Below are positions 31,709-60,397 of a stretch of DNA of 64,000 nt, piece by piece. The translations under genes were made by a program, and so were the position numbers. Within the stretch, counting starts at the first letter, position 1. Each line of letters begins with the position of its first letter. Where the stretch lies: the NCBI GenBank assembly GCA_017411305.1, contig JAFQQI010000047.1, forward strand, positions 23,986 to 87,985, in the 5' to 3' direction. This stretch comes from Lachnospiraceae bacterium (GTDB lineage Bacteria; Bacillota; Clostridia; Lachnospirales; Lachnospiraceae). Below the pieces are notes generated by a model, which was not told where the DNA came from, made no database searches, and saw only the letters and a program-made list of their open reading frames with translations.

Positions 31709-32057
31709 CCGCCTAAATGAAGAGAAAGTAGATTTTGGCGGGCGAAAAGAACGAGCAAAAAAGTATGGCGTCCGCTTGAGATGAGAAAAAGTGAATTTAG
31801 GCGGAAAAAAAGCAGGAGCAGAATCCGCTTAGGATGAGAAAAAGTGGATTTAGGCGGAAAAAAAGCAGGAGCAGAATCCGCTTAAGATGAGAAAAAGTGG
31901 ATTTAGGCGGAAAGGAAGCAGGAACAGAATCCGCTTAAGATGAGAAAAAGTGGATTTGGGCGGAAAGGAAGCAGAAACAGAATCCGCTTAGGATGAGAAA
32001 AAGTGGATTTAGGCGGAAAGGAAGCAGGAATAGAATCCGCCTAAATGAAGAGAAAGT
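31709..32057. repeat. Tandem array A, 53-bp units with GCGGA-N18-TCCGC palindrome
   Basis: Five complete palindromes with left arms at 31801, 31854, 31907, 31960 and 32013, exactly 53 bp apart, plus a lone right arm at 31771. Each palindrome is GCGGA, 18 nt, TCCGC. The 25-bp stretches between palindromes are also nearly identical. The array is bounded by an identical 21-bp sequence at 31709-31729 and 32037-32057, a variant (AAATGAAGAG) not used inside the array. It begins 12 bp after the argC stop. It shares its palindrome geometry with arrays B and C. Confidence 0.92.
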
Positions 32058-32112
32058 GACAATGGTCTAAATAGCATGTTTGAGGTAAAACGTGTTAAAA
32101 GGAGAACACAAA

Positions 32113-32472
32113 ATGGGCTTATTTGATTTTTTAAAGAAAAAAGAAGAAGTGATTGTAAATTTTGAGGAAATTGATTCTAATGAAAAGGCAATAGAGCTTG
32201 CGAAGAAGGGTGCACTTGCCCCTCTGTACTTAATGCCTCTTAGATTTAACGGACCTGAGTCCGTAGAAAACCGTTTATTTGTTCCGAAAGAAGTCGTTAA
32301 ATTAAAGGACAGATATGATGATATGGTTGAAGATTTGCTTAGACAGGGAAAGGTATCAGGATATTCCTGTACACCGGAGTATAAGGGCAAAAGCTTTATT
32401 CCCTGTAAGCTAACAATTGAAGCATCAAAGGATAAAGAACCGGTATTTACAGAGACAATTAATATCTGGTAA
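32113..32472 (+). CDS. Hypothetical protein, 119 residues
   Basis: Not recognised. It begins MGLFDFLKKKEE, a start shared by many small soluble proteins, with no signal peptide or transmembrane segment, and a mixed alpha/beta composition. ATG 32113 is preceded by AAAAGGAG; an in-frame ATG at 32092 lacks a ribosome site. It follows array A directly and lies 15 bp before the YbaK-like gene, so it probably shares a transcript with it. Confidence 0.7.
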   Translation: MGLFDFLKKKEEVIVNFEEIDSNEKAIELAKKGALAPLYLMPLRFNGPESVENRLFVPKEVVKLKDRYDDMVEDLLRQGKVSGYSCTPEYKGKSFIPCKLTIEASKDKEPVFTETINIW

Positions 32473-32487
32473 AGGACAGACAATTAC

Positions 32488-33051
32488 ATGAACGAACTGA
32501 TACACGATGCAACGTTATATGAAGATATCCCGTCGCCCGAAGGTAGGGAAGAAAAAGAGATGGCGGTATACAGATTGCTGAAAGAGCTTGCAATTCCTTA
32601 TAAAAGACTGGATCATGAGGAAGCGGCAACCATTGAAGCCTGCCGAGGGATTGATGAATTGCTGGGAATACATATGTGTAAGAATTTATTTTTGTGCAAT
32701 TCCCAGAAAACAGTGTTTTACTTGCTTTTGATGCCGGGAGAGAAGAAGTTCAAAACCAAGGAGCTTTCTAAGCAGATAGGCAGTGCCAGACTTTCTTTTG
32801 CATCGGCAGAGCATATGGAGGAGCTTCTGAACATTACGCCCGGCTCGGTTAGTGTTATGGGGTTGATGAATGATAAGGAAAACAGGGTAAACCTTTTGAT
32901 AGATGAGGATGTGCTGAAGGAAGAGGTGCTTGGTTGTCATCCTTGTGTAAATACTGCAAGCCTGAAGATGAATACAAAAGATGTGATTGAAAAATTCCTA
33001 CCTTATGTAAACCACTCATACAGAGTGGTACATCTTGTGGGAGAAGATTAA
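32488..33051 (+). CDS. YbaK/ProX-type aminoacyl-tRNA deacylase
   Basis: A 187-residue single-domain protein of the YbaK / prolyl-tRNA synthetase-associated domain family, which removes wrongly attached amino acids from tRNA in trans. The central segment MCKNLFLCNSQKTVFYLLLMPGEKKFKTKEL holds the conserved Lys and surrounding strands, and GSARLSFAS and TPGSVSVMGLMND are also typical. It looks closest to free-standing ProX/PrdX-type proteins. The tRNA specificity cannot be read. Confidence 0.88.
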   Translation: MNELIHDATLYEDIPSPEGREEKEMAVYRLLKELAIPYKRLDHEEAATIEACRGIDELLGIHMCKNLFLCNSQKTVFYLLLMPGEKKFKTKELSKQIGSARLSFASAEHMEELLNITPGSVSVMGLMNDKENRVNLLIDEDVLKEEVLGCHPCVNTASLKMNTKDVIEKFLPYVNHSYRVVHLVGED

Positions 33052-33063
33052 AAGAGGTACGTT

Positions 33064-33510
33064 ATGACAGTAAGAACAATGACCATAGAAGATTATCAGG
33101 GTGTATATGATTTATGGATGACCATTAAGGGCTTTGCCATCAGAAGCATTGACGATTCCAAGGTTGGTGTAGAAAGATTCCTGAAAAGAAATCCAACAAC
33201 CAGCGTGGTTGCTATAGAAGACGATAAAATTGTAGGTAGTATTCTATGTGGTCATGATGGCAGAAGAGGTTGCCTTTATCATGTATGTGTACATGAGGAT
33301 TATCGTATGCGCGGTATCGGTAAAAGCATGGTAGTGCACTGCATGAAGGAACTGGAAAAGGAACAGATTAGTAAGGTTTCCCTGATTGCATTTACCCAGA
33401 ATGACATTGGTAATGCATTTTGGAAGGAAATAGGCTGGACCAAGAGAGAAGACTTGAACTACTATGATTTCACGCTGAACAAAGAAAATATTATTAACTA
33501 TAATAAATAG
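33064..33510 (+). CDS. GNAT-family N-acetyltransferase
   Basis: A 148-residue acetyl-CoA-dependent acetyltransferase. The acetyl-CoA binding motif is at about residues 78-90 (VHEDYRMRGIGKSMV), preceded by the strand GSILCGHDGRRGCLYHVCV. The C-terminal FWKEIGWTKREDLNYYDF is the usual GNAT ending. Substrate unknown. It lies 12 bp after the YbaK-like gene. Confidence 0.9.
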   Translation: MTVRTMTIEDYQGVYDLWMTIKGFAIRSIDDSKVGVERFLKRNPTTSVVAIEDDKIVGSILCGHDGRRGCLYHVCVHEDYRMRGIGKSMVVHCMKELEKEQISKVSLIAFTQNDIGNAFWKEIGWTKREDLNYYDFTLNKENIINYNK

Positions 33511-33554
33511 TGCAGAATAAAATATATTACATAAAAAGATAAGGAATGAAAGCA

Positions 33555-34484
33555 ATGATTTATAAGAATGTATTAGAAGCCATTGGTCATACTCCCATCA
33601 TTGAATTACAAAAAATGGTAGATGAAGATAGTGCCAGAGTACTTGTAAAATATGAAGGCCTTAATGTAGGTGGGTCTGTGAAGACCAGAACTGCGCTGAA
33701 TATGATTCTGGCAGCAGAAGAGCAGGGTATTTTAAAACCGGACTCTATTATTGTGGAGCCGACCAGTGGAAATCAGGGAATCGGCTTAGCGCTTGTAGGT
33801 GCAGTAAAGGGATACGAAGTAGTAATTATTATGCCCGATTCTGTCAGTGAAGAAAGACGCCTTTTGGTAGAGCATTACGGCGCAAAGGTAGTGCTGATTC
33901 ATGACAAGGGGAATATTGGCGACTGTATCGATGAGTGTGTAAAGACAGCTATCCGTATGAAAGAAGAAAATCCCAGAGTGTATGTGCCGCAGCAGTTTGA
34001 AAATCAGGCAAATCCCATGGTACATCGTCATCACACAGGCTTGGAGATTTTAGAGCAGGTGGCAGGTCCCATTGACGGATTTTGCTCCGGAATCGGAACA
34101 GGTGGCACCATTACTGGTATCGGCGAGACCTTAAAGGCGTTAAATCCTCAGATTACTATTTGGGCAGTGGAGCCGGAAAATGCGGCAATTCTTGCTGGTG
34201 GTACAGTAGGAAACCATATTCAGATGGGTATCGGTGACGGCGTCATTCCCACAGTACTGAATCAGCAGATTTATGAAGATATTGCCATTATTTCTGATGA
34301 AGAGGCATTACAGACAGCGAAAGACTTGGCAAGATATGAAGGTATTATGTGCGGCATTTCCAGCGGAACCAATGTAGCAGCAGCGCTTCGCCTTGCAAAG
34401 AAGCTGGGTAAGGGTAAGACAGTGGTTACTATTTTACCGGATACTGCTGAGAGATATTTTTCTACGCCGCTATTTCAGGATTAA
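33555..34484 (+). CDS. CysK-like PLP enzyme with altered active-site motifs
   Basis: A 309-residue fold-type II PLP enzyme related to O-acetylserine sulfhydrylase. The PLP lysine is Lys43 in GGSVKTRTAL, where ordinary CysK has SVKDR. The asparagine loop reads TSGNQG (Asn73, Gln74) in place of TSGNTG. The phosphate-binding GTGGT loop is intact (GIGTGGTITG). These changes in substrate-contacting positions suggest a different nucleophile or amino-acid substrate. ATG 33555 is preferred, as AAGGA at 33541-33545 touches the alternative ATG at 33546. Confidence 0.82.
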   Translation: MIYKNVLEAIGHTPIIELQKMVDEDSARVLVKYEGLNVGGSVKTRTALNMILAAEEQGILKPDSIIVEPTSGNQGIGLALVGAVKGYEVVIIMPDSVSEERRLLVEHYGAKVVLIHDKGNIGDCIDECVKTAIRMKEENPRVYVPQQFENQANPMVHRHHTGLEILEQVAGPIDGFCSGIGTGGTITGIGETLKALNPQITIWAVEPENAAILAGGTVGNHIQMGIGDGVIPTVLNQQIYEDIAIISDEEALQTAKDLARYEGIMCGISSGTNVAAALRLAKKLGKGKTVVTILPDTAERYFSTPLFQD

Positions 34485-34555
34485 GAGAAACAAAAGATGC
34501 AGTAAACAATGAAAAGAATAGGTCATCAAGATACATACCATGAAAGGAATATCAT

Positions 34556-35482
34556 ATGAACAAACAGATAGTTATATTGACTGTTTTGGGACTACTGATG
34601 CTGGCCGGATGTAAAAATAATGACGATGATATAACTGCAAAAACAGAGATATCGGCTGAAATTGTAGAAGAAACAAGCGTGTCTGCAACAGAAGAGGCTG
34701 CAAAGACAGTAACCAAAGAAGCAGACACAGAAGAACAAAAAGCAGAAGAACCAAAAGAGACGGAAAAATCTGCAGATACAGAAGAAACCCAAGAGGCGGA
34801 AGCTGTAAATGCAGAAAAGTCTGAAGAAGTCGCAGATGCAGAGAAGCCCCGAGAAACAGTAGACGAAGAAGCAATTACATTTCAGTTCCCAAACGAAGCG
34901 GTCAAAGGATTTGTAGAGCAGACAGTGGTGCTTTCGGAAAATACCATGATGGAAGCCTATGAATGGGTAAAGGAATCCCAGGTTTTGCGTGTCCGCGTAC
35001 AATACAAAGAGCAACCGGAAGATAATTATCTCCACAAGGAAGACTATTTCTTCTTTTTTGCAAATGGAGAAATCGTGGAGACTTTGTATGTGGACTATCC
35101 TTCAAAGGATTTTGAGAATATGGATAAACCCAGATATGTGGCGGAGGCCTGCGATTTTGGAGCTCACATGGAGGATGTAACCTTTGATGGCAGAGAAGAT
35201 TTGATTATCTCGCTTGGATATGGTGGCAGTGCCACATTTGCATGTGCCTATATTGCTACGGAGGACGGATTTAAGTACAACCAATCTTTTGAAGAGATTC
35301 CTTCCTATGAGGTTGATGTACAAGAACAGGTCATTAGAGGAAGCAACACGCATAATGCGGTTTCTTATTCAGAGTATGAATACCGGTATGAAAATGAAAG
35401 CTTTGTATTGAAAACAGAAAGAAATTTTGAATATAGCGAAGCAACCGAACAACATGAATTGGCAGAAGAAATAAAATATTGA
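34556..35482 (+). CDS. Lipoprotein of unknown function
   Basis: A 308-residue protein with a lipoprotein signal ending in LMLAGC (Cys19). Residues ~25-105 are a low-complexity acidic linker rich in Glu, Lys, Ala and Thr. The C-terminal ~190 residues form a globular domain with many beta strands and a repeat-like segment (ATFACAYIATEDGFKYN) resembling extracellular beta-propeller or repeat proteins. I do not recognise a family. It sits between cysK-like and argJ genes in the same direction. Confidence 0.75.
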   Translation: MNKQIVILTVLGLLMLAGCKNNDDDITAKTEISAEIVEETSVSATEEAAKTVTKEADTEEQKAEEPKETEKSADTEETQEAEAVNAEKSEEVADAEKPRETVDEEAITFQFPNEAVKGFVEQTVVLSENTMMEAYEWVKESQVLRVRVQYKEQPEDNYLHKEDYFFFFANGEIVETLYVDYPSKDFENMDKPRYVAEACDFGAHMEDVTFDGREDLIISLGYGGSATFACAYIATEDGFKYNQSFEEIPSYEVDVQEQVIRGSNTHNAVSYSEYEYRYENESFVLKTERNFEYSEATEQHELAEEIKY

Positions 35483-35552
35483 AGCCTAAAACGAAAACTG
35501 GTTTTACTGTAAGAATAATAAATAAGTGTACAAACACAGAAAAGAGGACAGT

Positions 35553-36776
35553 ATGAAAGTAAGAACAGGCGGTGTGACCGCAGCAAAAGGTTTTGAAGCA
35601 GCAGGTGTAGAAGCAGGGATTAAGTACAAAAACAGAAAAGACATGGCTATGGTGTATAGTCAGAAGCCTTGTGTTTTGGCAGGAACCTTCACCACAAATG
35701 TAGTTAAGGCAGCCCCTGTTCTTTGGGATAAAAAGGTAGTAGAGGAATCTCCTTTCGGACAGGCAGTAGTTATCAATGCAGGAATTGCTAATGCTTGTAC
35801 CGGCGAGGAAGGCTATTCCTATTGTGATAAGACCGCCAAGGTGGCAGCAGCAGCCCTGAATATTCCGGCGGATTCCGTTCTGGTGGCATCTACAGGTGTC
35901 ATCGGTATGCAGCTTCCCATTGACAGAATTGAAGCCGGCGTAGAGAAGCTTGCTAAAGCAAAAGCAGAAACTTTGGAAGCAGGCACTCTGGCAGCAGAAG
36001 CTATCATGACAACCGATACCATTTCCAAGCAGGTTGCGGCAGAAATTGAAGTTGGCGGTGTGAAGGTAACCATTGGCGGTATGAGTAAGGGCTCCGGCAT
36101 GATTCATCCCAATATGTGTACCATGCTTGGATTTATTACTACAGATGCTGTGATTACAAAAGAAGCATTGACTAAGGCTCTTAAAGAAGATGTGGTGGAT
36201 ACCTTCAATATGATTTCCGTAGACGGAGATACATCTACCAATGACACCTTATTGATTATGGCAAACGGCATGGCAGAGAATCCTGAAATCAAGGTAGATA
36301 CGCCTGAATATGAAGAGTTTAAGGCAGCCCTTCATTATGTCAATGAAACTCTTGCAAAGATGATGGCAGGAGACGGGGAAGGAGCAACCGCACTTTTAGA
36401 GGTTAAGGTGACAAATGCTGACACCAAAGAAAACGCACGTATATTAAGCAAATCAGTAGTTTGCTCAAGTCTCGTAAAAGCAATGATTTATGGACATGAT
36501 GCCAATGCAGGAAGAATCTTATGTGCCCTTGGTTATTCCGGTGTACAGTTTAATCCTGAGAAAATTGACTTATATTTTGAGAGTGAAGCAGGAAAAATCA
36601 AGATTTATGAGGATGGTGTTTCTACAGGATATGATGAAGCTGTAGCAACGACAATCCTGTCAGAAGCAGAAGTGACTGTATTAGTCGATATGAAGATGGG
36701 AAATGAAACCGCTACAGCATGGGGCTGCGATTTGACATATGATTATGTTAAAATAAACGCGGATTACAGAAGTTAA
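35553..36776 (+). CDS. argJ: Bifunctional glutamate N-acetyltransferase / amino-acid acetyltransferase ArgJ
   Basis: Moves the acetyl group from N-acetylornithine to glutamate, recycling it in arginine synthesis. The 407-residue precursor has the self-cleavage region KGSGMIHPNMCTMLGFITTDA, where the Thr of the C-T-M-L core becomes the N-terminal nucleophile of the beta chain, and the C-terminal GCDLTYDYVKINADYRS typical of the family. ATG 35553 follows AAGAGGAC. Presence of ArgJ implies the cyclic acetyl pathway. Confidence 0.97.
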   Translation: MKVRTGGVTAAKGFEAAGVEAGIKYKNRKDMAMVYSQKPCVLAGTFTTNVVKAAPVLWDKKVVEESPFGQAVVINAGIANACTGEEGYSYCDKTAKVAAAALNIPADSVLVASTGVIGMQLPIDRIEAGVEKLAKAKAETLEAGTLAAEAIMTTDTISKQVAAEIEVGGVKVTIGGMSKGSGMIHPNMCTMLGFITTDAVITKEALTKALKEDVVDTFNMISVDGDTSTNDTLLIMANGMAENPEIKVDTPEYEEFKAALHYVNETLAKMMAGDGEGATALLEVKVTNADTKENARILSKSVVCSSLVKAMIYGHDANAGRILCALGYSGVQFNPEKIDLYFESEAGKIKIYEDGVSTGYDEAVATTILSEAEVTVLVDMKMGNETATAWGCDLTYDYVKINADYRS

Positions 36777-36908
36777 CGTTTTTGTGAAAAATGCGCATAG
36801 ATTTCCTGCATGATTTGTGATACGTTTTTATTCAACTAACTATTCACTATTATTTTGAATTAACTCTTTTGAATTATCTTTTCGCAAATCAGGAGAACTC
36901 TATTACAT

Positions 36909-37280
36909 ATGTTTTGTCCATTAGGCAGGATTAATTTACCTATATTAAATGAATATTTTAATCTGACTACCGATGAAACGATTGTAACAGATGAACGTTT
37001 TTCCCATATTAAGCAAAATCATCCTCAAGATGTAGATTTGTTTAAATGTTATGGGAAGATATGCATTGAGCACCCGGACATAGTTGTACAAGACATAGTA
37101 AATCAAGGTACAGTTTTTATGATTAAAAAGTTGCCGGATACAAATTTGAATGTTGTTGTCCGTTTGGTGCTACAGGGTGAAGACGTAAACAGAAAAAATT
37201 CTGTGATGACTTTTTACAGAATCCGTGAGAAGAATTTGGAAAAACTCATAAATAAAAACAAACTTCTTTACAGTAAATAA
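36909..37280 (+). CDS. Small PBECR-like (phage/RelE-fold nuclease) domain protein
   Basis: A 123-residue, AT-rich protein that resembles the PBECR group of barnase-EndoU-colicin-RelE-like RNases: an ERFSHIKQNHPQD segment with the conserved His near residue 41, and a C-terminal SVMTFYRIREKNLEKLI strand-helix. It stands alone, without an obvious partner antitoxin, between argJ and argB. The only good Shine-Dalgarno (AGGAG at 36891-36895) is 13 nt from the ATG, unusually far, so expression may be weak or the start may be non-standard. In other genomes such domains are often phage or toxin parts. Confidence 0.6.
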   Translation: MFCPLGRINLPILNEYFNLTTDETIVTDERFSHIKQNHPQDVDLFKCYGKICIEHPDIVVQDIVNQGTVFMIKKLPDTNLNVVVRLVLQGEDVNRKNSVMTFYRIREKNLEKLINKNKLLYSK

Positions 37281-37295
37281 GTTGCAAGCTATAAT
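37267..37295 (+). promoter_or_regulatory. argB leader promoter
   Basis: TTTACA (37267-37272), 17-bp spacer, consensus TATAAT (37290-37295). Transcription would start near 37302, giving a 5' leader of about 150 nt before argB. Confidence 0.72.
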
Positions 37296-37301
37296 TAAAT
37301 T

Positions 37302-37425
37302 GTAAATAACATATAATCAATATAGCCAGGTATTTATTTGAAGTAGAGATTGTGCTGCTACGCACCCTTGTGGTCAAAAGAAATGCAGGAAGGGGCACAC
37401 CTGCCAAATAAATACTTGGTTTTTT
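37302..37425 (+). promoter_or_regulatory. Structured leader with terminator-like stem upstream of argB
   Basis: A 15-bp closing stem (37326-37340 with 37405-37419, one G-U pair) is followed directly by six T, as in an intrinsic terminator. The 64 nt enclosed can form two further hairpins, GTGC-tgctac-GCAC and GCAGG-N10-CCTGC, so the whole is a multi-branched RNA. It lies between a good promoter and the argB ribosome site. It may act as an attenuator, or be a short non-coding RNA, or be a small inverted-repeat element. Confidence 0.5.
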
Positions 37426-37453
37426 GATGTATAAAAGAAAAGGAGATACTACC

Positions 37454-38347
37454 ATGGATATGGAAAAAATTATGAAAAAAGCGGAAGTACTGATTGAAGC
37501 CCTTCCTTACATACAGAAATTTAACCGTAAAATCATCGTTGTAAAGTATGGCGGCAGTGCTATGAGCAACGAAGAGTTACAAAAAAACGTCATTAAGGAC
37601 GTAACCCTGCTTAAGCTGGTAGGTTTTAAGCCCATTATTGTACACGGCGGTGGTAAGGAAATCAGCCGGTGGGTAGAAAAGACAGGTAAGGAAGCAAAGT
37701 TTGTTAACGGGCTTCGTGTGACTGATGCAGAAACCATGGAAATTGCGGAAATGGTTTTAGGCAAGGTTAACAAGAGATTGGTAACCATGGTAGAAGAACT
37801 GGGTGTAAAAGCAGTAGGTATCAGTGGCAAGGACGGAAAGCTTCTTAAGGTAGATAAGAAGTATTCAAGCGGTGAGGATATCGGTTTTGTAGGTGATGTG
37901 AAAGAAGTAAATGCGAAGATTCTTTACGACCTTCTTGAGAACGATTACCTTCCTATAGTTGCACCTATCGGATTGGATGATAATTTCGATACCTACAATA
38001 TTAATGCGGATGATGCAGCTTGTGCCATTGCAAAGGCAGTAGGTGCGGACAAACTGGTATTTTTGACAGATATTGAAGGCTTATATAAGGATATCAATGA
38101 TAAGAGCTCCTTTATTTCCAGAATTACTGCATCAGAAGCAGACGAGTTAATCTCTGACGGATTTATCGGCGGCGGCATGCTTCCTAAGCTGAATAACTGT
38201 ACTTCTGCAATTAAGAATGGTGTAAACAGAGTGCATATTTTAGACGGACGAATCAGACATTGTCTGTTGCTTGAAATTTTTACCAATGAAGGGATAGGAA
38301 CCGCCATTATTAAAGATGAAGACAAAGCATCTATGAGCGGGGTATAG
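37454..38347 (+). CDS. argB: Acetylglutamate kinase
   Basis: Phosphorylates N-acetylglutamate, the second step of arginine synthesis. The 297-residue protein has [19 protein letters not shown] and the GGMLPKL motif near residue 243 expected for ArgB. AAGGAG precedes ATG 37454. A leader with a terminator-like structure precedes it and argD follows 87 bp later. Arginine feedback inhibition is common for this size class. Confidence 0.97.
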
Positions 38348-38434
38348 GGATAGACAAGATAAAAGCAATAGTGAAAACGGTGGCGTAATCTGCAGATGTG
38401 TACAGAAAGCAGCCGGCAGAAAGGAATGAGCATT

Positions 38435-39631
38435 ATGGAGAATATGAAGCAATACATTGACGAAGCAGAAGCAGCGCTTTTACATACCTATAATCGTTAT
38501 CAGGTAGTACTTGATAAGGGAGACGGTGTGTATTTATATGACATCGAGGGCAAGAAATATCTTGATTTCTGCGCGGGAATTGCAGTATTCGCACTGGGCT
38601 ATAACAATCAGAAATATAATGATGCCTTAAAGGCGCAGATTGATAAGCTGATTCATACATCCAATTATTACTATAATGTACCTGCTATCGAAGCAGCAAA
38701 GAAGCTGAAGAAGGTCTCAGGTATGGACAGAATTTTCTTCACCAATAGTGGTGCAGAAGCGGTGGAAGGTGCCATTAAAGCGGCAAGAAAGTATGGCTAC
38801 CTGAAGGATGGCAGAACTGATCATGAAATCATTGCCATGGAGCATTCCTTCCACGGCAGAACCATGGGTGCCCTTTCCGTAACAGGAAATCCCAAGTACC
38901 GTGATGCATTCCAACCCATGATTGGTAATATCCGTTTCGCACAGATGAATGATTTTGACAGTGTTCTTGCCAATGTAAATGACAAGACCTGTGCGATTTT
39001 GTTTGAAACCGTACAGGGTGAAGGTGGTATTTATCCTGCAACAGAAGAATTTATGCAGAAGGTAAAAGCACTTTGTGAAGAAAAGGATATCCTTTTGATT
39101 TTGGATGAAATCCAGTGTGGTATGGGGCGTACCGGTTCCATGTTTGCATGGCAGAAGTATGGCATTAAGCCGGATATCATGACTACTGCAAAAGCACTTG
39201 GATGTGGTGTGCCTGTGGGTGCATTTATGATGACTGAAAAGGTAGGGCAAAGCTCGCTGGTTGCCGGAGACCATGGCACCACATACGGCGGAAACCCTCT
39301 TGCAACAGCAGCTATCAATGTTGTGCTTGATTTATTTGAAGAGAACCATATAATAGATAATGTGAATTCAGTGGGTTCCTATTTAGAAAAGAAACTGGAT
39401 GAACTTGTGGAGAAATATGACTTTATCAAAACCAGAAGAGGTGTAGGTTTCATGCAAGGGCTTGTGTTTGATAAGCCTGTAGGACCTGTGATTTCAAAGG
39501 CTCTTGAAAAAGGTCTGATATTAATCAATGCAGGAACGGATATCATTCGTTTTGTTCCGCCTCTTGTGATTACTAAAGAGCATGTGGACGAAATGATTGC
39601 CATTTTAACGTCTTGCCTGAATGAAGGATAG
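38435..39631 (+). CDS. argD: Acetylornithine aminotransferase
   Basis: PLP-dependent transaminase that makes N-acetylornithine. The 398-residue protein has TNSGAEAVEGAIKAARK, the LILDEIQCGMGRTG motif that binds PLP, and the catalytic Lys in MTTAKALGCG. ATG 38435 follows AAAGGA by 9 nt; another in-frame ATG at 38426 touches the ribosome site. It closes the argB-argD pair. Confidence 0.95.
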   Translation: MENMKQYIDEAEAALLHTYNRYQVVLDKGDGVYLYDIEGKKYLDFCAGIAVFALGYNNQKYNDALKAQIDKLIHTSNYYYNVPAIEAAKKLKKVSGMDRIFFTNSGAEAVEGAIKAARKYGYLKDGRTDHEIIAMEHSFHGRTMGALSVTGNPKYRDAFQPMIGNIRFAQMNDFDSVLANVNDKTCAILFETVQGEGGIYPATEEFMQKVKALCEEKDILLILDEIQCGMGRTGSMFAWQKYGIKPDIMTTAKALGCGVPVGAFMMTEKVGQSSLVAGDHGTTYGGNPLATAAINVVLDLFEENHIIDNVNSVGSYLEKKLDELVEKYDFIKTRRGVGFMQGLVFDKPVGPVISKALEKGLILINAGTDIIRFVPPLVITKEHVDEMIAILTSCLNEG

Positions 39632-45641: not shown

Positions 45642-47843
45642 ATGAGGAAAAGACCGTTAGCAATGGTCTGCCTTGTAATTATTGTTTTTTTATTTTGTTC
45701 TACAAAGATTGTGAAAACTTCTCCTCCCGATTTTTTGATATGGGAGGGGAAGCGTATTGCTGTAACAGGCGAAATTTATGCTAAAGAAACTTATTTTAAG
45801 GCAGACAAAGAGGTTTCGGTAGTCTATGTTAGGTTATCTTCTGTATTTTACGGAAGCGACCGGACAGATATTCGGTTAGGAGATTACCGGGCAATATGTT
45901 ATTTGAAAGAAAATCAGACGATGCCCAAATTAGGCAGTATCGTTCATATGACCGGAATTATGCAAGGCTTTGACAAAGCAACAAATCCGGGTCAATTCGA
46001 TGCAGAATCTTATTATCATATTTTAAAAATATCTTTTCGATTAAATCAGACAGAAATTCAACAACAATCCCACACTTACCATGAGATAAAAGAAACACTT
46101 TACAAGTTAAAATGCAGATGCTCGGAAATTTTTGATATCACTCTCGCACCGAAGGATGCATCCGTTATGAAAACTATGCTTTTGGGAGAGAAGAAAGCGG
46201 TAGACGGGGAAAGAAAAGAACTTTACCAAAAAAGTGGTATCGCACATATTTTAGCTATTTCCGGCTTGCATATTTCCTTAATCGGAATGACACTGTTTAA
46301 AGTATTACGCAGATTGGGAATACCGGTAGCAGTTTGCACTGTGGCATCAACCATACTGATACTTCTGTATGGCTGTATGACAGGCTTTCCGGTTTCTGTA
46401 ATCCGGGCAGTAGGCATGTTCGGTATTCATATGCTGGGGCGGATGTGCAGGCGGACTTATGATATGGTAACTGCAGTGGCGGTTATGGCCGTCTTAATTT
46501 TGATTGAGCAACCTTTATATTTTTATAGTGGCAGCTTTTTGCTTTCCTTTGGCTGTGCGCTTACAATTGCGCTTTTATTGCCGGCGCTTACAAAGAAACG
46601 CCTAAAAAAAGAAAAGGAACTAAACCCGTGGCTTGTCAAGTTCGCAGGAGGACTGACAGTTACGATTGGGATACTTCCTTTGCAAATGTGGTTCTTTTAT
46701 CAGATACCGCTTTATTCGGTGTTGCTTAATTTATTAATAATTCCTTTAATGAGTCTGCTACTGCCGTCAGGTATGCTGTTGCTTGTTTGTGGTATGGTTG
46801 CAAGTAATGCGTGGTATCCGGCTACAGAAGTTGTAGCAGAAGGAGTAAGATATCCGGTTGAAGGGATTTTAGCAGTTTATGATAGCGTATGCAGTATTGC
46901 AACAAAATTGCCGGGTGGACTTTGTGTGACGGGAAGGCCGGCAGTATGGAAGGTCATATGTTATTTTGGAGCTTTGCTTGCAGTAATTATCCGGCAGAAA
47001 AAACTTTCCCTGAAACAGAAATGGTTACTTGTGGGCAGTGCGGTAATACTGCTGATGTGGCCGATGCCGAAGCAGTGCAGCATTACTTTTTTAGATGTGG
47101 GACAGGGGGATTGCATTCATATTCAAAGTAAGTCGGGAAATCATTATTTGATTGACGGCGGCAGCAGCTCTGTATCAGATGTGGGTAAATATCGGATTTT
47201 GCCATATTTGAAATATCATGGTGTAAGGGAGCTTGAAGCGGTATTTATTACTCATCCTGATGAAGATCACTGTAACGGGATTAGAGAGTTGCTTTTTTTG
47301 GCATTCGGCGAAGGCATTGATATGAAAAGGCTATGTCTTCCGGATATCGGTAGCGTTGCAAGAACAGAAGCGTATGAAGAACTGGTAGCAGCTGCTGAAA
47401 AGGCGGGGATTCCGATATCCTATTTTTCGGAAGGAATGTCACTGCAGGATGATGAGCTTTATTTGAAATGTTTGCATCCGGAAAAGGGATATATAAGTAA
47501 GAATGAAAATGCTTATTCACTTGTTTTTCTGATGAAATATGAATCCTTTGAAGCTTTGTTTACAGGAGATGTGGAAGGGGAAGGAGAGGAAGAGCTGATA
47601 CATGTACTGCAGAAAGAAGTACAGGCGCCCATCGATGTGCTTAAGGTAGCGCATCATGGTTCAAGATACTCTACATCAGAAGAATTTTTATCTTTAACTC
47701 ATCCGAAAGTGTCAGTGATTTCCTGCGGGGAGAATAATTCTTATGGACATCCCCATAGGGAAACCTTAGAGCGGCTTGCGGCATTCAATAGTCAGGTACT
47801 GGTAACAAGTGATAATGGAGCTGTTACTTTGAAATTACCATAA
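45642..47843 (+). CDS. comEC: DNA internalisation channel ComEC/Rec2
   Basis: Membrane channel for single-stranded DNA uptake. The 733-residue protein has an N-terminal DUF4131-type domain (about 1-180), a Competence transmembrane domain (about 195-460, GIAHILAISGLHISLIGM start) and a C-terminal metallo-beta-lactamase domain (from about 480) with LDVGQGDCIHI, ITHPDEDHCNG and KVAHHGSRYSTS, the metal-binding motifs. All three domains are intact. AAGGAGG precedes the ATG. Array B lies downstream. Confidence 0.96.
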   Translation: MRKRPLAMVCLVIIVFLFCSTKIVKTSPPDFLIWEGKRIAVTGEIYAKETYFKADKEVSVVYVRLSSVFYGSDRTDIRLGDYRAICYLKENQTMPKLGSIVHMTGIMQGFDKATNPGQFDAESYYHILKISFRLNQTEIQQQSHTYHEIKETLYKLKCRCSEIFDITLAPKDASVMKTMLLGEKKAVDGERKELYQKSGIAHILAISGLHISLIGMTLFKVLRRLGIPVAVCTVASTILILLYGCMTGFPVSVIRAVGMFGIHMLGRMCRRTYDMVTAVAVMAVLILIEQPLYFYSGSFLLSFGCALTIALLLPALTKKRLKKEKELNPWLVKFAGGLTVTIGILPLQMWFFYQIPLYSVLLNLLIIPLMSLLLPSGMLLLVCGMVASNAWYPATEVVAEGVRYPVEGILAVYDSVCSIATKLPGGLCVTGRPAVWKVICYFGALLAVIIRQKKLSLKQKWLLVGSAVILLMWPMPKQCSITFLDVGQGDCIHIQSKSGNHYLIDGGSSSVSDVGKYRILPYLKYHGVRELEAVFITHPDEDHCNGIRELLFLAFGEGIDMKRLCLPDIGSVARTEAYEELVAAAEKAGIPISYFSEGMSLQDDELYLKCLHPEKGYISKNENAYSLVFLMKYESFEALFTGDVEGEGEEELIHVLQKEVQAPIDVLKVAHHGSRYSTSEEFLSLTHPKVSVISCGENNSYGHPHRETLERLAAFNSQVLVTSDNGAVTLKLP

Positions 47844-47862: not shown

Positions 47863-48100
47863 AAGCGGACGGTAAAGAGAAGTCGCGTCCGCTTAAAAGT
47901 ACAAAAGTTATAAGAAGCGGACGGCAAAGAGAAGCCGCGTCCGCTTAAAAGTACAAAAGTCATAAGAAGCGGACGGTAAAGAGAAGTTGCATCCGCTTAA
48001 AAGTACAAAAGTTATAAGAAGCGGACGATGAAGAGAATTTACATCCGCTTAGAAGAGTAAAGCGGGTAAGAAGCGGACAACAAAAGAAAACGCGATCCGC
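47863..48100. repeat. Tandem array B, 52-bp units with GCGGA-N18-TCCGC palindrome
   Basis: Five palindromes with GCGGA at 47865, 47917, 47969, 48021 and 48073, exactly 52 bp apart. Each has TCCGC 18 nt after the left arm; the stem extends to AAGCGGAC/GTCCGCTT in the first units. The 24-bp spacers are nearly identical in units 1-3 and diverge towards the right end. Inner triplets GGT/GTC in unit 1 become GGC/GCC in unit 2, keeping base pairing. The array begins 20 bp after the comEC stop and fills most of the 340-bp gap before the next gene. Confidence 0.92.
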
Positions 48101-48183
48101 TTAAAAGTATGAAGAACACAGAAGAGAGGACTTATGATATAGGTAAATAGAAAATTATATAAAAACTAGAAGGAGGAAATAAT

Positions 48184-48975
48184 ATGCATCATTTTGAAGC
48201 GGCATTACGTGAAGAAGTATCAGCGTTAAAGAAACTTAAAGTCAGTGTAAGCAGGAGATTGGAAAAAGCATCGAAAGGATCATTGCGCATCTCCGGTAAA
48301 AGAGGTAAATATGAATGTTATGTGAAAAAAGAAGGAGATAAGAAAAACGGACAATATTTAAAAAAATCAGAAATCGCAACAGCGAAAGCATTAGCACAGA
48401 GAGATTATGACAGAGAACTTTTACAGACAGTGGAAAGAAGAATCAAAATTATCGAAAAATTTTTGAAAGGATATCATGAAACAAGTTTAAAACGATTGTA
48501 TGGAAAAACCCATCCGTTTCGGCGAAAAATAATTGAAGTGGCAGAAATCTCAGATGAGGAATATGTGAAAAGATGGGAAAATTTAAATTATGCACCTATG
48601 CCATTTTCAGAGGGAACGCCGGAATATTATACAGAGAAAGGAGAACGTGTGCGCTCTAAATCAGAAAAAATAATTGCAGATAAACTGTTTCTTCTTGGAA
48701 TTCCGTATCGATATGAATATCCTCTTATAGTGGGCGACGTGGAGAAAAGACCGGATTTTACAATCTTGAAGATGCCTACCCGAGAAGTAGTTTATTTGGA
48801 ACATTTCGGAAGAATGGATGATATGACTTATGTAGAGAATAATGTCCGTAAGCTACAAATGTATGAGAACAATGGAATATATATTGGTGTGAATTTGTTT
48901 ATTACATTTGAAACAGCAACAAAACCATTAAACACTAAGGAATTGGATAAAATGCTTCAATGTATTTTCCTGTAA
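48184..48975 (+). CDS. Hypothetical protein with PD-(D/E)XK nuclease-like C-terminus
   Basis: A 263-residue protein I do not recognise as a named family. The N-terminal half (about 1-110) is highly basic and helical. The C-terminal half has a restriction-endonuclease-like pattern: GERVRSKSEKIIADKL (Glu at about 162), then RPDFTIL (Asp at about 191), then a strand VVYLEHFGRMDD (Glu at about 205), as in solitary nuclease-like genes. AAGGAGG precedes the ATG and the gene directly follows array B. The codon use is AT-rich and Lys-rich compared with neighbours. Confidence 0.65.
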   Translation: MHHFEAALREEVSALKKLKVSVSRRLEKASKGSLRISGKRGKYECYVKKEGDKKNGQYLKKSEIATAKALAQRDYDRELLQTVERRIKIIEKFLKGYHETSLKRLYGKTHPFRRKIIEVAEISDEEYVKRWENLNYAPMPFSEGTPEYYTEKGERVRSKSEKIIADKLFLLGIPYRYEYPLIVGDVEKRPDFTILKMPTREVVYLEHFGRMDDMTYVENNVRKLQMYENNGIYIGVNLFITFETATKPLNTKELDKMLQCIFL

Positions 48976-52694: not shown

Positions 52695-52704
52695 AATATC
52701 AGTA

Positions 52705-53173: not shown

Positions 53174-53195
53174 ATCAAGAAAGTGAGGAATCAGA

Positions 53196-53417
53196 ATGAA
53201 AAAGACTTATATTTTGGAAGATTTGGATTGTGCACATTGTGCAGCAAAAATTGAAGAGGCAGTAGGAAAGCTTGAAGGCGTCAGCAAAAGCACCGTTACA
53301 CTTTTGACCCAGAAGCTGGTGATTGAAGTAGAGGATGATAAGGCCAAATCCATTTACAAAGATATTGAGAAGATTGTAAAGAAATTTGAGCCTGATGTGG
53401 AAGTAATTGAAAAATAA
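53196..53417 (+). CDS. Heavy-metal-associated domain protein
   Basis: A 73-residue single HMA domain with the metal-binding C-x-x-C (DCAHCAAKIEEAV) and the ferredoxin-like beta-alpha-beta-beta-alpha-beta pattern. As a free small protein it could pass metal to the P-type ATPase encoded 40 bp downstream. The Cd/Zn-type neighbour suggests zinc, cadmium or lead. Confidence 0.92.
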   Translation: MKKTYILEDLDCAHCAAKIEEAVGKLEGVSKSTVTLLTQKLVIEVEDDKAKSIYKDIEKIVKKFEPDVEVIEK

Positions 53418-53457
53418 TTGTAGGGAAATGCGAAAACAGATAACGGAGCTGTAAATT

Positions 53458-55410: not shown

Positions 55411-55428
55411 ATATATAGGAGGTTACAA

Positions 55429-57306: not shown

Positions 57307-57339
57307 ACAATATCAAATACAATATTTTTTCAGAAATTG

Positions 57340-57371
57340 AAATGCTGCCGGTACATTGCCGGCAGCATTTT
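57340..57371. terminator. Bidirectional terminator between convergent genes
   Basis: AAATGCTGCCGG (57340-57351) pairs perfectly with CCGGCAGCATTT (57359-57370), with T runs on both strands. It serves GH97 on the plus strand and the PNPOx-like gene on the minus strand. Confidence 0.92.
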
Positions 57372-57375
57372 CATC

Positions 57376-57813
57376 TCAGTTGGTTGTAAAATCAATATCA
57401 TATTTTTTGCCTTGCGAAAAAAGAATTCCATCAGTAAGCGTAATGCTAAGAATACAAGTGTTCTCATCATCAAAATTATTATGACCGTTGTCAATCCAGG
57501 CAGAAAAAGCAGCTTTAAGCTTTTTCGCAATAGCTTCGTTTTCCTCTTTTCCAAAATAACCAAGGCTGGTTCCGCTTCCATGACCGGTAAACCAATCACC
57601 GGCAATCGCTACTTTGGGATTATTTTCAATCTGTTTCATTTTATTGGAGAGGGCATAGGTGATTATATAAAAGGTACCATCTTCATAATAAGCATTTACA
57701 TTCCGGACATATGGCACACCGTTTTCCAAGGTTGCTAATGCAAGAATTGTATCCTTTCCAAAGCGCTGAGTCATGATTTCTTTTGTTTCTGAATTAAGCT
57801 TCTGCATTTTCAT
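57376..57813 (-). CDS. Pyridoxamine 5'-phosphate oxidase-like (flavin split-barrel) protein
   Basis: A 145-residue protein with the PNPOx-like split-barrel pattern: ILALATLENGVPYVRNVNAYYEDGTFYIIT near the N-terminus and NPKVAIAGDW in the middle. Such proteins bind FMN or F420-like cofactors, but the function here is not known. ATG 57813 is preceded by AAGGAG; a second ATG two codons later is possible. It follows the XRE-PNPOx fusion gene by 18 bp in the same direction. Confidence 0.82.
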   Translation of the reverse strand: MKMQKLNSETKEIMTQRFGKDTILALATLENGVPYVRNVNAYYEDGTFYIITYALSNKMKQIENNPKVAIAGDWFTGHGSGTSLGYFGKEENEAIAKKLKAAFSAWIDNGHNNFDDENTCILSITLTDGILFSQGKKYDIDFTTN

Positions 57814-57831
57814 TCGTCTCCTTTTCATTTT

Positions 57832-58431
57832 TTAGGCTATTTCAATATTATCGATGAGTATTTTAAAAATAACAAAATACATTTCTGATTCATTCAGATA
57901 CTTTTGCTTCAAAAGGGGATATGCATTCATCATTTCCTCTTTGATATGTATGGACTCTTCAATCTCGGCTTTTCCGCTAATTCTAATCCACTTGCGTGTA
58001 TGCAAATTATAGGTGGCAATCTCAAGCAGAGAATTCGACATTAAATCGGAATATACATTTTTGCGTTTGTCTGTAGCAATAAGCAGTTCTTTACCATTAG
58101 AGTATATCATTCCCAATGGTCTTACTTTAGGCTGGTTGTCAACTGATGTTGCCAAAAAGAAAAATCCGCAATCACGAATAAACTGATAGCAATCGGTGAT
58201 AGATGTTTCTGAATCACTTTCTCTGATTTCCTGAATGCTGTCATTAAGCAAAAAATCAATGCTGCATCCAAACAGCTTACTCAATGCAATAAGTTTATCT
58301 GTTTCCGGAAAGGTTGCATCCATCTCCCATCTGGAAACGGATTGCCGTGATACTTTTAAAATTTCGGATAATTCTTCTTGCGTTAATCCTTTTTTCTTTC
58401 GAAGCAATGATAATTTTTCTCCGGTAGTCAT
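57832..58431 (-). CDS. XRE-type HTH fused to a flavin split-barrel domain
   Basis: A 199-residue protein. Residues 1-66 are an XRE/Cro helix-turn-helix (KLSLLRKKKGLTQEELSEIL, then VSRQSVSRWEMD). Residues ~78-199 are a PNPOx-like split barrel (FFFLATSVDNQPKVRPLGMIY). This fits a transcription factor that reads a flavin or a small ligand bound by the barrel. It sits in tandem with a free split-barrel protein and is divergent from the hydrolase gene. GGAGGTGATC precedes the ATG. Confidence 0.88.
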   Translation of the reverse strand: MTTGEKLSLLRKKKGLTQEELSEILKVSRQSVSRWEMDATFPETDKLIALSKLFGCSIDFLLNDSIQEIRESDSETSITDCYQFIRDCGFFFLATSVDNQPKVRPLGMIYSNGKELLIATDKRKNVYSDLMSNSLLEIATYNLHTRKWIRISGKAEIEESIHIKEEMMNAYPLLKQKYLNESEMYFVIFKILIDNIEIA

Positions 58432-58490
58432 ATGATCACCTCCGATATCATTATTATAATTCTATAGACGAAAAATAGGAACCCACTTGG

Positions 58491-58517
58491 ACGTGCGAAA
58501 TGTAAACTTTAACGTGC
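58491..58517. promoter_or_regulatory. Direct repeat ACGTGC in the divergent spacer
   Basis: ACGTGCGAAA at 58491 and ACGTGCAAAA at 58512 repeat in the same orientation 21 bp apart, about two helical turns, between the XRE-PNPOx gene and the hydrolase promoter. It may be an operator for the adjacent XRE regulator. Confidence 0.35.
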
Positions 58518-58527
58518 AAAAATTTAA

Positions 58528-58555
58528 TTGATTGTGAAAAGAAAAATGATATACT
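58528..58555 (+). promoter_or_regulatory. Hydrolase promoter
   Basis: TTGATT (58528-58533), 16-bp spacer, TATACT (58550-58555). Confidence 0.68.
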
Positions 58556-58596
58556 AAAAATTAGATAATTAGAAGCATAATTACAGGAGCAAAACA

Positions 58597-59412
58597 ATGA
58601 TTGAGAAACAATTCGAAACCCGTTGTGGGAACATTCATTATTTTACCGGTGAAAACGTAGATAAGGAAAAGAAAAACTTAGTCTTTTTGCCGGGGTTGAC
58701 AGCTGACCACAGATTGTTTGATAAACAGATTGCCTATTTTAAGGATAAGTATAATGTCTTTGTGTGGGATGCACCGGGGCATGCTTCTTCATGGCCTTTT
58801 TCTTTTGATTTTACGCTTATGGATAAAGCAAAGTGGCTGGATCATATTTTAGAGAAAGAAGGAATGGACAGACCCATTATCATAGGACAATCCATGGGTG
58901 GATATGTGGGACAGGCATATGCACAGCTGTTTCCTGAAAAACTGAAAGGTTTTGTATCTGTTGATTCAGCGCCCCTTCAGAGAAAATACCTGACAGTAGC
59001 TGAGCTATGGTTACTAAAAAGGATGGAGCCGGTATATCGTTACTATCCATGGAAATCATTGCTGAAATCCGGGACAAAGGGCGTTGCCACAACAGCCTAT
59101 GGAAGAAGTCTGATGTATGACATGATGATGACCTATGATGGAAATCAGGAGCGTTATGCCAAATTATCAGGACACGGTTTTCGGATTTTGGCAGAAGCCA
59201 TAGAAGAAAATTTACCTTATGAGGTTACTTGTCCTGCACTTCTGATTTGCGGAGAGAAGGATAAAGCGGGTTCTTGCATCAGATACAGTAAAGCATGGCA
59301 CAAAAATACAGGTATCCGTTTGGAATGGATTAAGGATGCGGGACATAATTCCAATACAGATAAGCCTGAGATTGTAAACCGGCTCATAGAGGAATTTGTG
59401 GAGTCCTTGTAA
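58597..59412 (+). CDS. Alpha/beta hydrolase
   Basis: A 271-residue serine hydrolase. The nucleophile elbow is GQSMGGYVGQ (Ser near residue 99), the acid Asp is likely in CGEKDKAGS and the His in DAGHNSNTD. It resembles small soluble esterase/lyase-like members and has no signal peptide. Substrate unknown. The DUF402 gene follows 17 bp later. Confidence 0.88.
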   Translation: MIEKQFETRCGNIHYFTGENVDKEKKNLVFLPGLTADHRLFDKQIAYFKDKYNVFVWDAPGHASSWPFSFDFTLMDKAKWLDHILEKEGMDRPIIIGQSMGGYVGQAYAQLFPEKLKGFVSVDSAPLQRKYLTVAELWLLKRMEPVYRYYPWKSLLKSGTKGVATTAYGRSLMYDMMMTYDGNQERYAKLSGHGFRILAEAIEENLPYEVTCPALLICGEKDKAGSCIRYSKAWHKNTGIRLEWIKDAGHNSNTDKPEIVNRLIEEFVESL

Positions 59413-59429
59413 AGTGTGGAGAGATAAGA

Positions 59430-59960
59430 ATGAAGAGAAGCAGACTGTCTTATGATGAGTGGAAATGTATTTTATCAAAAGAATTGTGTGGAAGCAGAGT
59501 GACTTCGAAACTAATAACGGGATATATTGGGTTAATTGAAGTCCGGGAAGTCAGCAAAGCGCAGACATGGAAATTCAGAGGCGAAGATATTATTGTTTGT
59601 GATAAAGGAATTAAGTGGTTGAGTATCTTGCCGGAAGATGATTGGTATTGTATTACGGCAATGATGAATGAAAAGGAAGAGATTCTGTTGTGGTATATTG
59701 ATATGATTGCCGCACAGGGAATTGATGCAGATGGGATACCCTATATTGATGATTTATATTTGGATTTGGTAGTCTACCCTGACGGAACGGTTCTTGTGGA
59801 TGATATGGATGAACTGGAGGAGGCACTCAAACAAAAGGATATTACACAGGAACAGTTTGACCTTGCGCTTGCAACAAGTGACAGACTACAAAAGGGATTG
59901 CTAAGTAATGTCAGTGATTTTGCGGAGTATACTAAGAAATGCTTAGAGATGATAAGATAG
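59430..59960 (+). CDS. DUF402-domain protein
   Basis: A 176-residue protein of the DUF402 (ntdp/FAU-1-like) family, whose studied members are nucleoside phosphatases or RNA-binding. The conserved core IIVCDKGIKWLSILP, LLWYIDMIAAQGIDADGIPYIDDLYLDLVVYPDGTV and ELEEAL is intact. It is probably cotranscribed with the hydrolase gene. A terminator-like hairpin and array C follow. Confidence 0.87.
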   Translation: MKRSRLSYDEWKCILSKELCGSRVTSKLITGYIGLIEVREVSKAQTWKFRGEDIIVCDKGIKWLSILPEDDWYCITAMMNEKEEILLWYIDMIAAQGIDADGIPYIDDLYLDLVVYPDGTVLVDDMDELEEALKQKDITQEQFDLALATSDRLQKGLLSNVSDFAEYTKKCLEMIR

Positions 59961-59968
59961 ATAGGTAC

Positions 59969-59998
59969 AAAAAGAAAATCTGCAAGTATTTTCTTTTT
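59969..59998 (+). terminator. Intrinsic terminator after DUF402
   Basis: AAAAAGAAAAT (59969-59979) pairs with ATTTTCTTTTT (59988-59998) around an 8-nt loop, ending in a T run. The stem is AT-only, so it may be weak. Confidence 0.55.
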
Positions 59999-60022
59999 AA
60001 ACGTTTATCAAGAACACCTCTT

Positions 60023-60397
60023 TCCGCTCAATCTGTTATTTTTGCATTTAGAGCGGAAGAAGGATTTGCTTTTGCACCGCTCATTTCCTTATATTGGCAT
60101 TTTAAGCGGAAGAAGGATTTGCATTTGCACCGCTCAATCTGTTATTTTTGCATTTAGAGCGGAAGAAGGATTTGTTTTCATACCGCTCATTTCCATATAT
60201 TGCATTTTAAGCGGACGAAAGATTTGTTTTCGCACCGCTCAATCCTTTATTTTTGCATTTAGAGCGGAAGAAGGATTTGTTTTCATACCGCTCATTTCCG
60301 TATATTGGCATTTAGAGCGGAAGAAGGATTTGTTTTCGCACCGCTCAATCCTTTATTTTTGCATTTAGAGCGGAAGAAAGATTTGCATTCACTCCGC
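60023..60397. repeat. Tandem array C, 52-53-bp units in an alternating two-type pattern
   Basis: Seven palindromes with GCGGA at 60053, 60106, 60159, 60211, 60264, 60317 and 60370, and CCGC arms exactly 18 nt after each (ACCGC, or TCCGC in the last). A lone right arm lies at 60023. The 24-25-bp stretches between palindromes alternate strictly between two types, TCAATC-...-TTTTTGCATTTAGA and TCATTTCC-...-ATATTGGCATTT, giving a 106-bp higher-order repeat. Short frames run through it but carry no gene-like signal. The array lies between the DUF402 terminator and the copper promoter. Confidence 0.92.

Follow-up and report, generated by a model that had tools for sequence, protein, structure and literature searches.

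The DNA analysed here, referred to as the window, is a stretch of 64,000 nt from a Lachnospiraceae bacterium (GCA_017411305.1, contig JAFQQI010000047.1, positions 23,986-87,985), whose 2.89 Mb assembly of 123 contigs has a completeness of 82.57% and is labelled G000. Three tandem arrays of palindromes, A, B and C, are present at the coordinates first given for them (Table 1). They begin 12 bp after the stop codon of an argC-like gene, 20 bp after that of comEC and 63 bp after that of a DUF402 gene, respectively, within the distances originally given. The window holds exactly 17 sites of the form GCGG-N20-CCGC, of which A and B have five each and C has seven. Their spacing is 52 or 53 bp, as first described, and when the same arm order was scanned with gaps of 10 to 39 nt no other gap occurred more than twice.

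Table 1. Arrays and neighbouring genes in the window (window coordinates).
Feature	Position	Strand	Hairpin starts	Description
argC-like gene	30744..31697	+		semialdehyde dehydrogenase domains; upstream of array A
Array A	31709..32057	+	31801, 31854, 31907, 31960, 32013	5 regular hairpin units, period 53, after one irregular longer unit
comEC	45642..47843	+		Competence domain and metallo-beta-lactamase domain; upstream of array B
Array B	47863..48109	+	47865, 47917, 47969, 48021, 48073	5 hairpin units, period 52, between comEC and uncharacterised gene
Uncharacterised 263-aa gene	48184..48975	+		follows array B; no Pfam match at E 0.001
DUF402 gene	59430..59960	+		upstream of array C
Array C	60023..60400	-		7 hairpin units, 60053 to 60370, period 52-53

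The arrays had been described as unrelated-looking, which does not hold: their units align gap-free when read on the purine-rich strand (C reversed), and a spacer core near TTAARATG-AAAAA is common to all three, being least clear in B and C. Moreover, the plus-strand 3′ arm, given loosely as T/A-CCGC, can be made precise, as it is ACCGC in 6 of the 7 C units and TCCGC in the other 11 units. The irregular first unit of A is itself matched (C32:55713-55785, window 31728-31800, E 0.0039) by a covariance model whose alignment was built from 25 of 78 extracted units. The purine-rich strand of array A is the plus strand, as for the argC-like gene upstream. Array C carries the family consensus on the minus strand, antisense to both neighbouring genes, and its purine bias is weak (0.55).

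Across the G000 genome, two consecutive GCGG-N20-CCGC units were matched 25 times per strand and not once in a reversed control; together with the confinement of all 17 window palindromes to arrays, this rules out a chance origin of the geometry. Five arrays without common flanks are present, namely A, B, C, C39:59385-59833 and C48:19800-20091. The pattern AAGCGGA-N18-TCCGCTT, with up to one mismatch, has 23 genome matches, all inside four of the five; the outer arms of array C differ from it. All 30 covariance-model matches also fall inside the five arrays (144 of 1060 first-look candidates scored), and neither the palindrome scan nor the model, over the same scored candidates, found a lone palindrome outside them.

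The arms were originally held to be fixed. Relatives retain the hairpin, often with different, co-changed arms. The orthologous comEC site carries arrays in G000, G012, G016 and G013, which between them use three sets of core arms: GCGGAC cores are kept in G016, and the geometry is unchanged with TAGGAC/GTCCTA arms in G012 and GTCGG/CCGAC arms in G013, where model matches flank both sides of the gene next after comEC. A similar array, of 72 bp, follows comEC in the cultured Lacrimispora saccharolytica An861. The argC and DUF402 loci of G012 carry no array. Nine further genomes, from eight other genera, were confirmed to carry tandem arrays of 52-54 bp, whose arms include ACCGTA, TAGGGG, CACGTA and GTCGGA; one gene context is thyA-[array]-folA. 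The geometry recurs, and between lineages the arms change as compensated pairs. Most arrays keep an exact loop length while the loop letters differ from one array to the next, and the number of units per array ranges from 1 to 13. Within G000 all five arrays, at unlinked loci, carry one set of core arms, and the five arrays of G012 likewise share a set of their own; two arm sets occur in each of G016, G257, G272 and G013, the arms being unlike between adjacent G257 arrays and between both G016 arrays.

GCGG arms are not a mark of the family, since the exact two-unit pattern gives true arrays in 2 of 37 genus genomes, our own included. Single matches in G002 and G034 appeared chance-like by eye, and G003, G005 and G034 each had one match in the reversed control. 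Of 397 genomes in the family sample, 15 match the pattern, our own arrays included; the G368 match is a different, 51-bp GC-rich repeat, and the remaining 13 genomes were judged by eye to be chance. Single model matches in G005 and G008 showed no array by eye. Half of the candidate loci (15/30) showed no tandem array and were set aside; the best of these, G236 (E 7.7e-7), is possibly a single unit. Phage carriage was rejected on 0 matches among viral contigs for each of two exact array patterns, covering two arm types only.

Stem pairing was assessed by covariation. Here, 94% of cells pair, 42 cells are double-changed compared with 14.8 in shuffles, and the covariation score is 0.632 against 0.229 in shuffles and at most 0.129 when slid; none of 500 shuffles reaches the observed value for any of the three measures. 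The covariation test found 7 of 8 stem pairs changed on both sides, which was equalled by 53 of the 500 shuffles. Imperfect arm pairs on the purine-rich strand are G-U in 36 and A-C in 13 array-by-position cases (30 arrays, 155 units; G272_a, G272_b and L232 yielded no units), with an excess of G-U in 18 arrays, of A-C in none and equality in 12. In an earlier count over 14 arrays the ratio was 11 to 4 columns. Limiting the test to the inner five pairs leaves the direction unchanged but weakens the signal (12 versus 3 cases, to which a C-A mismatch of array B just inside the counted stem is added). A bias of this kind is absent from loop columns (54 vs 67; Fisher p 0.0007). Strand was assigned by purine content, which lies near 0.5 for G000_C, G015_C44 and the two arrays of G064. 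Among 34 listed arrays, a gene upstream of the purine strand was found for 31, and in 25 of these it runs in the same direction (p 0.0009).

Compared with shuffles, whole arrays give better folds (z -6.0, -7.7 and -11.6, the last from 20 shuffles), and the predicted structures are branched and of mixed register, not clean rows of unit hairpins. When single units were folded (n=10), z fell below -2 in four, with a range of -0.4 to -5.3. Arm letters cannot separate pairing within a unit from pairing between neighbouring units: discordant cells number 38 and 35, respectively, and double changes 8 and 2 with 4.2 expected, the latter count omitting G015, G026, L217, L213, L232, G012_C20b and the 61-bp G013 arrays and having too few for G272_a and G272_b.

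From these sequence comparisons we lean towards the view that the arrays form a tandem hairpin family of several Lachnospiraceae genera, most likely acting as RNA in an intercistronic or 3′-UTR position. Each unit consists of a stem of ~6-8 bp, a loop of 15-18 nt (most often 16, measured between the 6-nt arm cores) and a spacer of ~24-26 nt after the hairpin, lengths that set the pitch of 52-54 bp. Transcription from the upstream gene probably yields a purine-rich array RNA, and selection appears to act on base pairing within it: letters change in matched pairs without altering shape or spacing, a pattern that suggests selection on the shape of a transcribed RNA. A binding protein, a cruciform and an RNA hairpin had been proposed side by side; of these, the RNA hairpin is favoured because of the covariation, the preference for G-U over A-C and the orientation, and the wider proposal of a single geometry under selection, with bodies free to diverge and units alike within an array, stands. 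The antisense position of array C relative to both neighbours is evidence against an RNA role. In cis, the structure might conceivably protect or insulate the upstream part of an operon mRNA, as in thyA-[array]-folA or comEC-[array]-next gene, by analogy with BIME and BOX. Unit number varies, probably through slippage or recombination, with units remaining alike within arrays, and one species also shows the spread of whole elements to several loci.

That species is G012, and it provides the case for non-autonomous mobile elements, BOX or MITE-like and moved by some transposase. Four of its arrays lie inside a dispersed element that has a sharply defined 5′ edge, conserved flanks on both sides and a BOX plan, the copies having 4, 4, 1 and 3 units, each after a different gene, and a fragment at C41 lacks the hairpin body. 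However, visual inspection of the four-copy alignment revealed neither terminal inverted repeats nor a target-site duplication, flanks are not shared among the five G000 arrays, and besides a 41-bp tail match in G015 the element is confined to G012 among 37 genomes. Moreover, a match to the Y1 transposase PF01797 is absent from the array carriers G013 (95% complete) and G015 (100%). We regard mobility as a possible but doubtful account of the family. Minisatellites, in which hairpin-prone intergenic DNA expands by replication slippage and a functionless palindrome has its arms kept complementary by template switching (quasi-palindrome correction), seem quite improbable. They agree with the variable unit number (1 to 13) and presence (no G012 array at argC or DUF402), and in a survey of loci coding arrays rarely have such arms whereas many non-coding arrays do, although many of these non-coding loci had been fetched because of arrays. 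Yet the cross-genus geometry and the one-strand G-U preference need more than a mutational mechanism, and template switching would yield perfect pairs rather than G-U.

A role at the DNA level, with the palindrome bound by a dimeric protein of nucleoid or partition type at half-sites ~22 bp apart, we consider unlikely. Units five turns apart would place all sites on one face, and a protein that differs between species would make the arms change. A plain mRNA hairpin does not need exact loop length, exact pitch or periods at multiples of 10.5 bp; a DNA-bound protein fits the exact loop length within most arrays despite diverging loop letters, and the core arms common to the five G000 and the five G012 arrays. 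The periods of seven lineages (53, 61, 62, 72, 73, 83 and 84) gather around multiples of 10.5 bp (Rayleigh p 0.0013; 0.12% of uniform draws match), although the set is small and was chosen post hoc, and they hint at an extra constraint on the DNA; the original remark on five helical turns is not refuted. The test omitted L214 and L195, both of 63 bp and lacking arms, L118/L183, of 53 bp and lacking N16 arms, and L166 (100 and 103 bp), the last of which would weaken the clustering if included; in L185 (62 bp, alternatively 124) the arms are no better than shuffles (p 0.295). Binding of DNA, however, leaves the G-U bias and the transcription orientation unaccounted for, and the unlike arms of the adjacent G257 arrays and of the two G016 arrays, together with the lack of lone palindromes in G000, speak against it. 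It is more doubtful still that the arms serve as a genome-specific password, by which a multivalent RNA links chosen mRNAs in trans or recruits a species-specific RNA-binding protein. With the same core arms at unlinked loci, as in G000 and in G012, every left arm on one mRNA could pair with every right arm on a second, and the arms would change in step across loci because mutual matching must persist; linked mRNAs would then be stored, decayed or localised jointly. The two arm sets of G016, G257, G272 and G013 would represent either two password sets or evidence against a password.

The arrays provide a case from gut bacteria in which, at one gene border, arms have been replaced while loop length, pitch and pairing were kept, a natural experiment on selection for RNA pairing, DNA helical phase or both. 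If the arrays do act as RNA, they would represent a class of operon-internal RNA structure with built-in variable copy number, which could tune gene expression between strains. Because such a family is defined by shape and not by letters, searches for repeats or RNAs that rely on sequence can easily overlook it.

In keeping with the original statement that no named repeat family of this form was known, the arrays fit no assignment to Rfam, RAYT, CRISPR or TIGR, and searches of the open PMC library gave no description of the family (subscription papers and preprints lay outside the scope). Rfam 15 gave no match over an array, either for 5 sources at the gathering score or for 12 sources at E up to 0.5. 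A sub-threshold match to Ref64 (E 0.007, 33.5 of 44.3 bits) adjoins the G062 array (L329:1754-1830). Intrinsic terminators were rejected as a reading, as a scan around arrays B and C found 0 instances of a GC stem, a loop of 3-8 and a following T run. CRISPR arrays consist of regular palindromic repeats; the spacers between our hairpins, however, repeat and are not unique. TIGR arrays consist of tandem stem-loops whose palindromic flanks vary in sequence, including one example from a rodent gut contig, and each unit holds two guide spacers near a Nop-domain protein (PMC12045711). The likeness lies in tandem stem-loops with variable palindromic flanks, but the loops within one array here are variants of one sequence, not unit-specific guides, and none of 20 proteins encoded in the window or beside arrays has a Nop domain.

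REP/BIME and REPINs are palindromes located between genes, regularly spaced and alternating in orientation, and are associated with RAYT transposases (PMC2817692, PMC3116915). Our arrays are similar in the form and placing of the palindromes, but have low copy number and no singletons were found in G000. Matches to PF01797, with RAYT and IS200 counted together, occur in G000, G012, G016 and G026 and in 21 of 37 genomes overall; RAYT-driven repeats were rejected on the carriers G013 and G015 noted above. Lastly, the BOX element of Streptococcus pneumoniae is intergenic and modular, with variable tandem boxB units between end modules and predicted RNA stem-loops, some within operons; it has terminal inverted repeats and target duplications and is reported at 125 copies in one genome (PMC3049150). 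Compared by description only, BOX differs from our arrays in copy number, as ~5 arrays per genome (5 found in G000, 5 in G012) stand against 125; in addition, the five G000 arrays have no shared end modules, and our family extends over several genera with arms that differ from one species to another. Among known kinds, the closest is the pneumococcal BOX element or the BIME, and in the G012 element, as in BOX, end modules surround a variable inner array.

The GCGG-N20-CCGC geometry is not a product of chance. A pattern scan of the window recovered 17 such sites, every one inside array A, B or C and at steps of 52 or 53 bp, and a whole-genome scan of the source organism (G000) identified two additional arrays, on contigs C39 (between thyA and folA) and C48. 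A two-unit pattern gave 25 matches per strand in G000 vs. 0 for the reversed pattern, bearing out the geometry of the original observation. Neither a palindrome search allowing one mismatch nor a covariance model (144/1060 candidates scored) found G000 copies beyond the arrays.

The three arrays had been described as unrelated-looking, with fixed arms; neither description holds. We picked 25 units out of 78, from 14 arrays in four genomes, and reversed arrays C, C39 and C48 to the purine-rich strand. On that strand the units, those of A, B and C included, align without a gap across 63 columns, with 6-nt arm cores around 16 nt, and by this alignment the arrays are a single family. Agreement among the five G000 array consensuses is 83% in the 12 arm-core columns, 58% in spacers and 29% in loops; between G000 and G012, a close relative, the corresponding values are 53%, 52% and 32%. 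Array A, G012 and G016_C3 show the genus spacer core, approximately TTAARATG-AAAAA, most clearly. At the comEC border the arm is AAGCGGAC in array B of G000 and AGGCGGAC, with the same core, in the same-genus G016, while G012 carries TAGGAC and a third relative, G013, carries GTCGGA or GTCGGG, each with a matching right arm. Four other G012 loci have the core arms of its comEC site (TAGGAT in one instance), and G016 holds a G-U form, TGGGAC with GTCCTA. As read from these comparisons, arms change as matched pairs. We tested covariation by counting the stem as 8 pairs, against slid controls and 500 shuffles, which do not correct for relatedness between rows. Changes on both sides were seen at 7/8 pairs, a result reached by 53/500 shuffles. 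Moreover, 94% of stem cells pair and 42 are changed on both sides (14.8 in shuffles), with 0/500 shuffles attaining either value, and the covariation score was 0.632 vs. 0.229 in shuffles (sd 0.033; 0/500 equal it) and ≤0.129 in slid controls. It is very probable that this is one family with pairing under selection.

We assigned the strand by purine content and sorted imperfect arm pairs by type across 30 arrays (155 units, other-pitch arrays included). G-U pairs accounted for 36 array-by-position cases (87 cells) vs. 13 (31 cells) for A-C; G-U was commoner in 18 arrays, A-C in 0, and 12 were equal (sign test 7.6e-6, treating arrays as independent, though same-genome copies are not). Loop columns, the control, had 54 transitions toward G-U vs. 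67 toward A-C (Fisher p 0.0007), and the upstream gene, as a mechanical ORF, was co-directional at 25/31 arrays (p 0.0009). Taken together, the G-U excess, the loop control and the co-directional genes therefore point to pairing on the transcribed strand as RNA, and we consider selection at the RNA level probable. Whole arrays gave good predicted RNA folds but with mixed registers, and z was below -2 in only 4/10 single units folded. The suggestion of five helical turns is not contradicted: on the DNA side, seven lineages have array periods that group around multiples of 10.5 bp (R 0.89, p 0.0013), although this set was small and picked post hoc. Both RNA pairing and a 10.5-bp periodicity constraint may be acting.

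Four G012 arrays (4, 4, 1 and 3 units) are embedded in copies of a dispersed element whose start is sharp and whose ends are conserved; these copies follow rimM, a GNAT gene, a methionyl-tRNA synthetase gene and a GGGtGRT gene; a further fragment elsewhere has one spacer and lacks the hairpin body. At its argC site G012 has an extra open frame and no array, and its DUF402 site likewise has no array. Arrays are thus gained or lost and vary in how many units they hold; in one species they have spread as elements. Around argC, 9/10 proteins are 93–99.8% identical to those of G012 and one 62%; for comEC the figure is 58%, for the gene after it 48%, and most neighbours beyond lie at 74–91%.

The covariance model, built from the 25 units, matched at least 25/397 family genomes at E ≤0.01, a lower bound because 13 candidates were scored per genome. 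Within the genus it matched 6/37 genomes: G000, G012, G016, G013, and G005 and G008 with one match each and no array. Tandem arrays were confirmed outside G000 in nine genomes of eight other genera (G064 and G382 of one genus, G062, G100, G106, G109, G257, G272 and G423); G064, part of the model, was first met in a tandem-repeat scan of sampled contigs, and the model found the other eight. Arms include ACCGTA, CACGTA, TAGGGG, GCCGTA, GTCGGA, GTGGGG and GCGGTA, and differ between two neighbouring arrays of G257. Most loop gaps are 16, but some lineages have 15, 17 or 18; the usual step is 52–54, with single exceptions including 49 (G016) and 51 and 55 (G382). An array lies just after comEC in 6 of the 80 ComEC loci kept (L156, L157, L163, L185 with weak arms, L217 and L232). 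Arrays of 61, 62, 72, 73 and 83–84 bp appear similar to the 52–54-bp family; the 83–84-bp form, with GGGTATA arms, had matches on 5 G015 contigs and 7 G026 contigs, in tandem at 3 and 4 of these, respectively.

Locations of hairpin arrays and nearby features
Location	Feature	Details
Window 31709–32057	Array A	After argC-like gene
Window 47863–48109	Array B	After comEC
Window 60023–60400	Array C	After DUF402
Window 341–405	Tandem repeat	22 bp, 3 copies, 74% match
Window 29172–39631	Possible recombination tract	Around argC, from protein identities
Window 37333–37412 (+)	Skipping-rope RNA (RF02924)	58 bits, gathering score 36.7
Window 60420–60473	22-bp repeat TAATGAATAATGATAATGTCAA	2.5 copies; separates array C from promoter-like site
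Window 60473–60501	Promoter-like site TTGACA-17-TATAGT	11/12 matches, ahead of csoR-like gene
L329:1754–1830 (-)	Enterococcus sRNA Ref64 (RF02847) match	E 0.007, sub-threshold; adjoins G062 hairpin array
G012 C20:25700–25950, C20:54600–54750, C25:184700–184870	Second dispersed repeat after hairpin element	3/4 copies, by eye; part also matches G015 C72
L163/G013 C47 ~11100–12470	Two near-alike hairpin stretches	Flank gene downstream of comEC, cassette-like
G013	Other-pitch array	61 bp
L185	Other-pitch array	62 bp
L217	Other-pitch array	73 bp
L232, Lacrimispora saccharolytica An861	Other-pitch array	72 bp
L213	Other-pitch array	84 bp
L246, L255, L251, L113	Other-pitch arrays, GAGGGTATA-N20-TATACCCTC hairpins	83–84 bp; several G015 and G026 loci

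We propose that the hairpin series would be transcribed between genes or in 3′ regions and kept for RNA structure, arms pairing inside their own unit or with a neighbouring unit, and that the hairpins would act in cis on mRNA stability or expression. On sequence grounds we lean modestly towards this reading as a whole; the cis effect, taken on its own, is a tentative proposal with slightly less than an even chance.

Our searches, too, turned up no named repeat family for the arrays: Rfam gave no match over any array tested, and no published description was found in the open PMC literature, the scope of the search (subscription papers and preprints lay outside it). REP/BIME elements require a RAYT transposase, whereas two array carriers (G013 and G015) had no match to it (PF01797). 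TIGR stem-loop arrays (PMC12045711) require guides and a Nop protein, neither of which was seen with these arrays. Closest in plan is the BOX element (PMC3049150).
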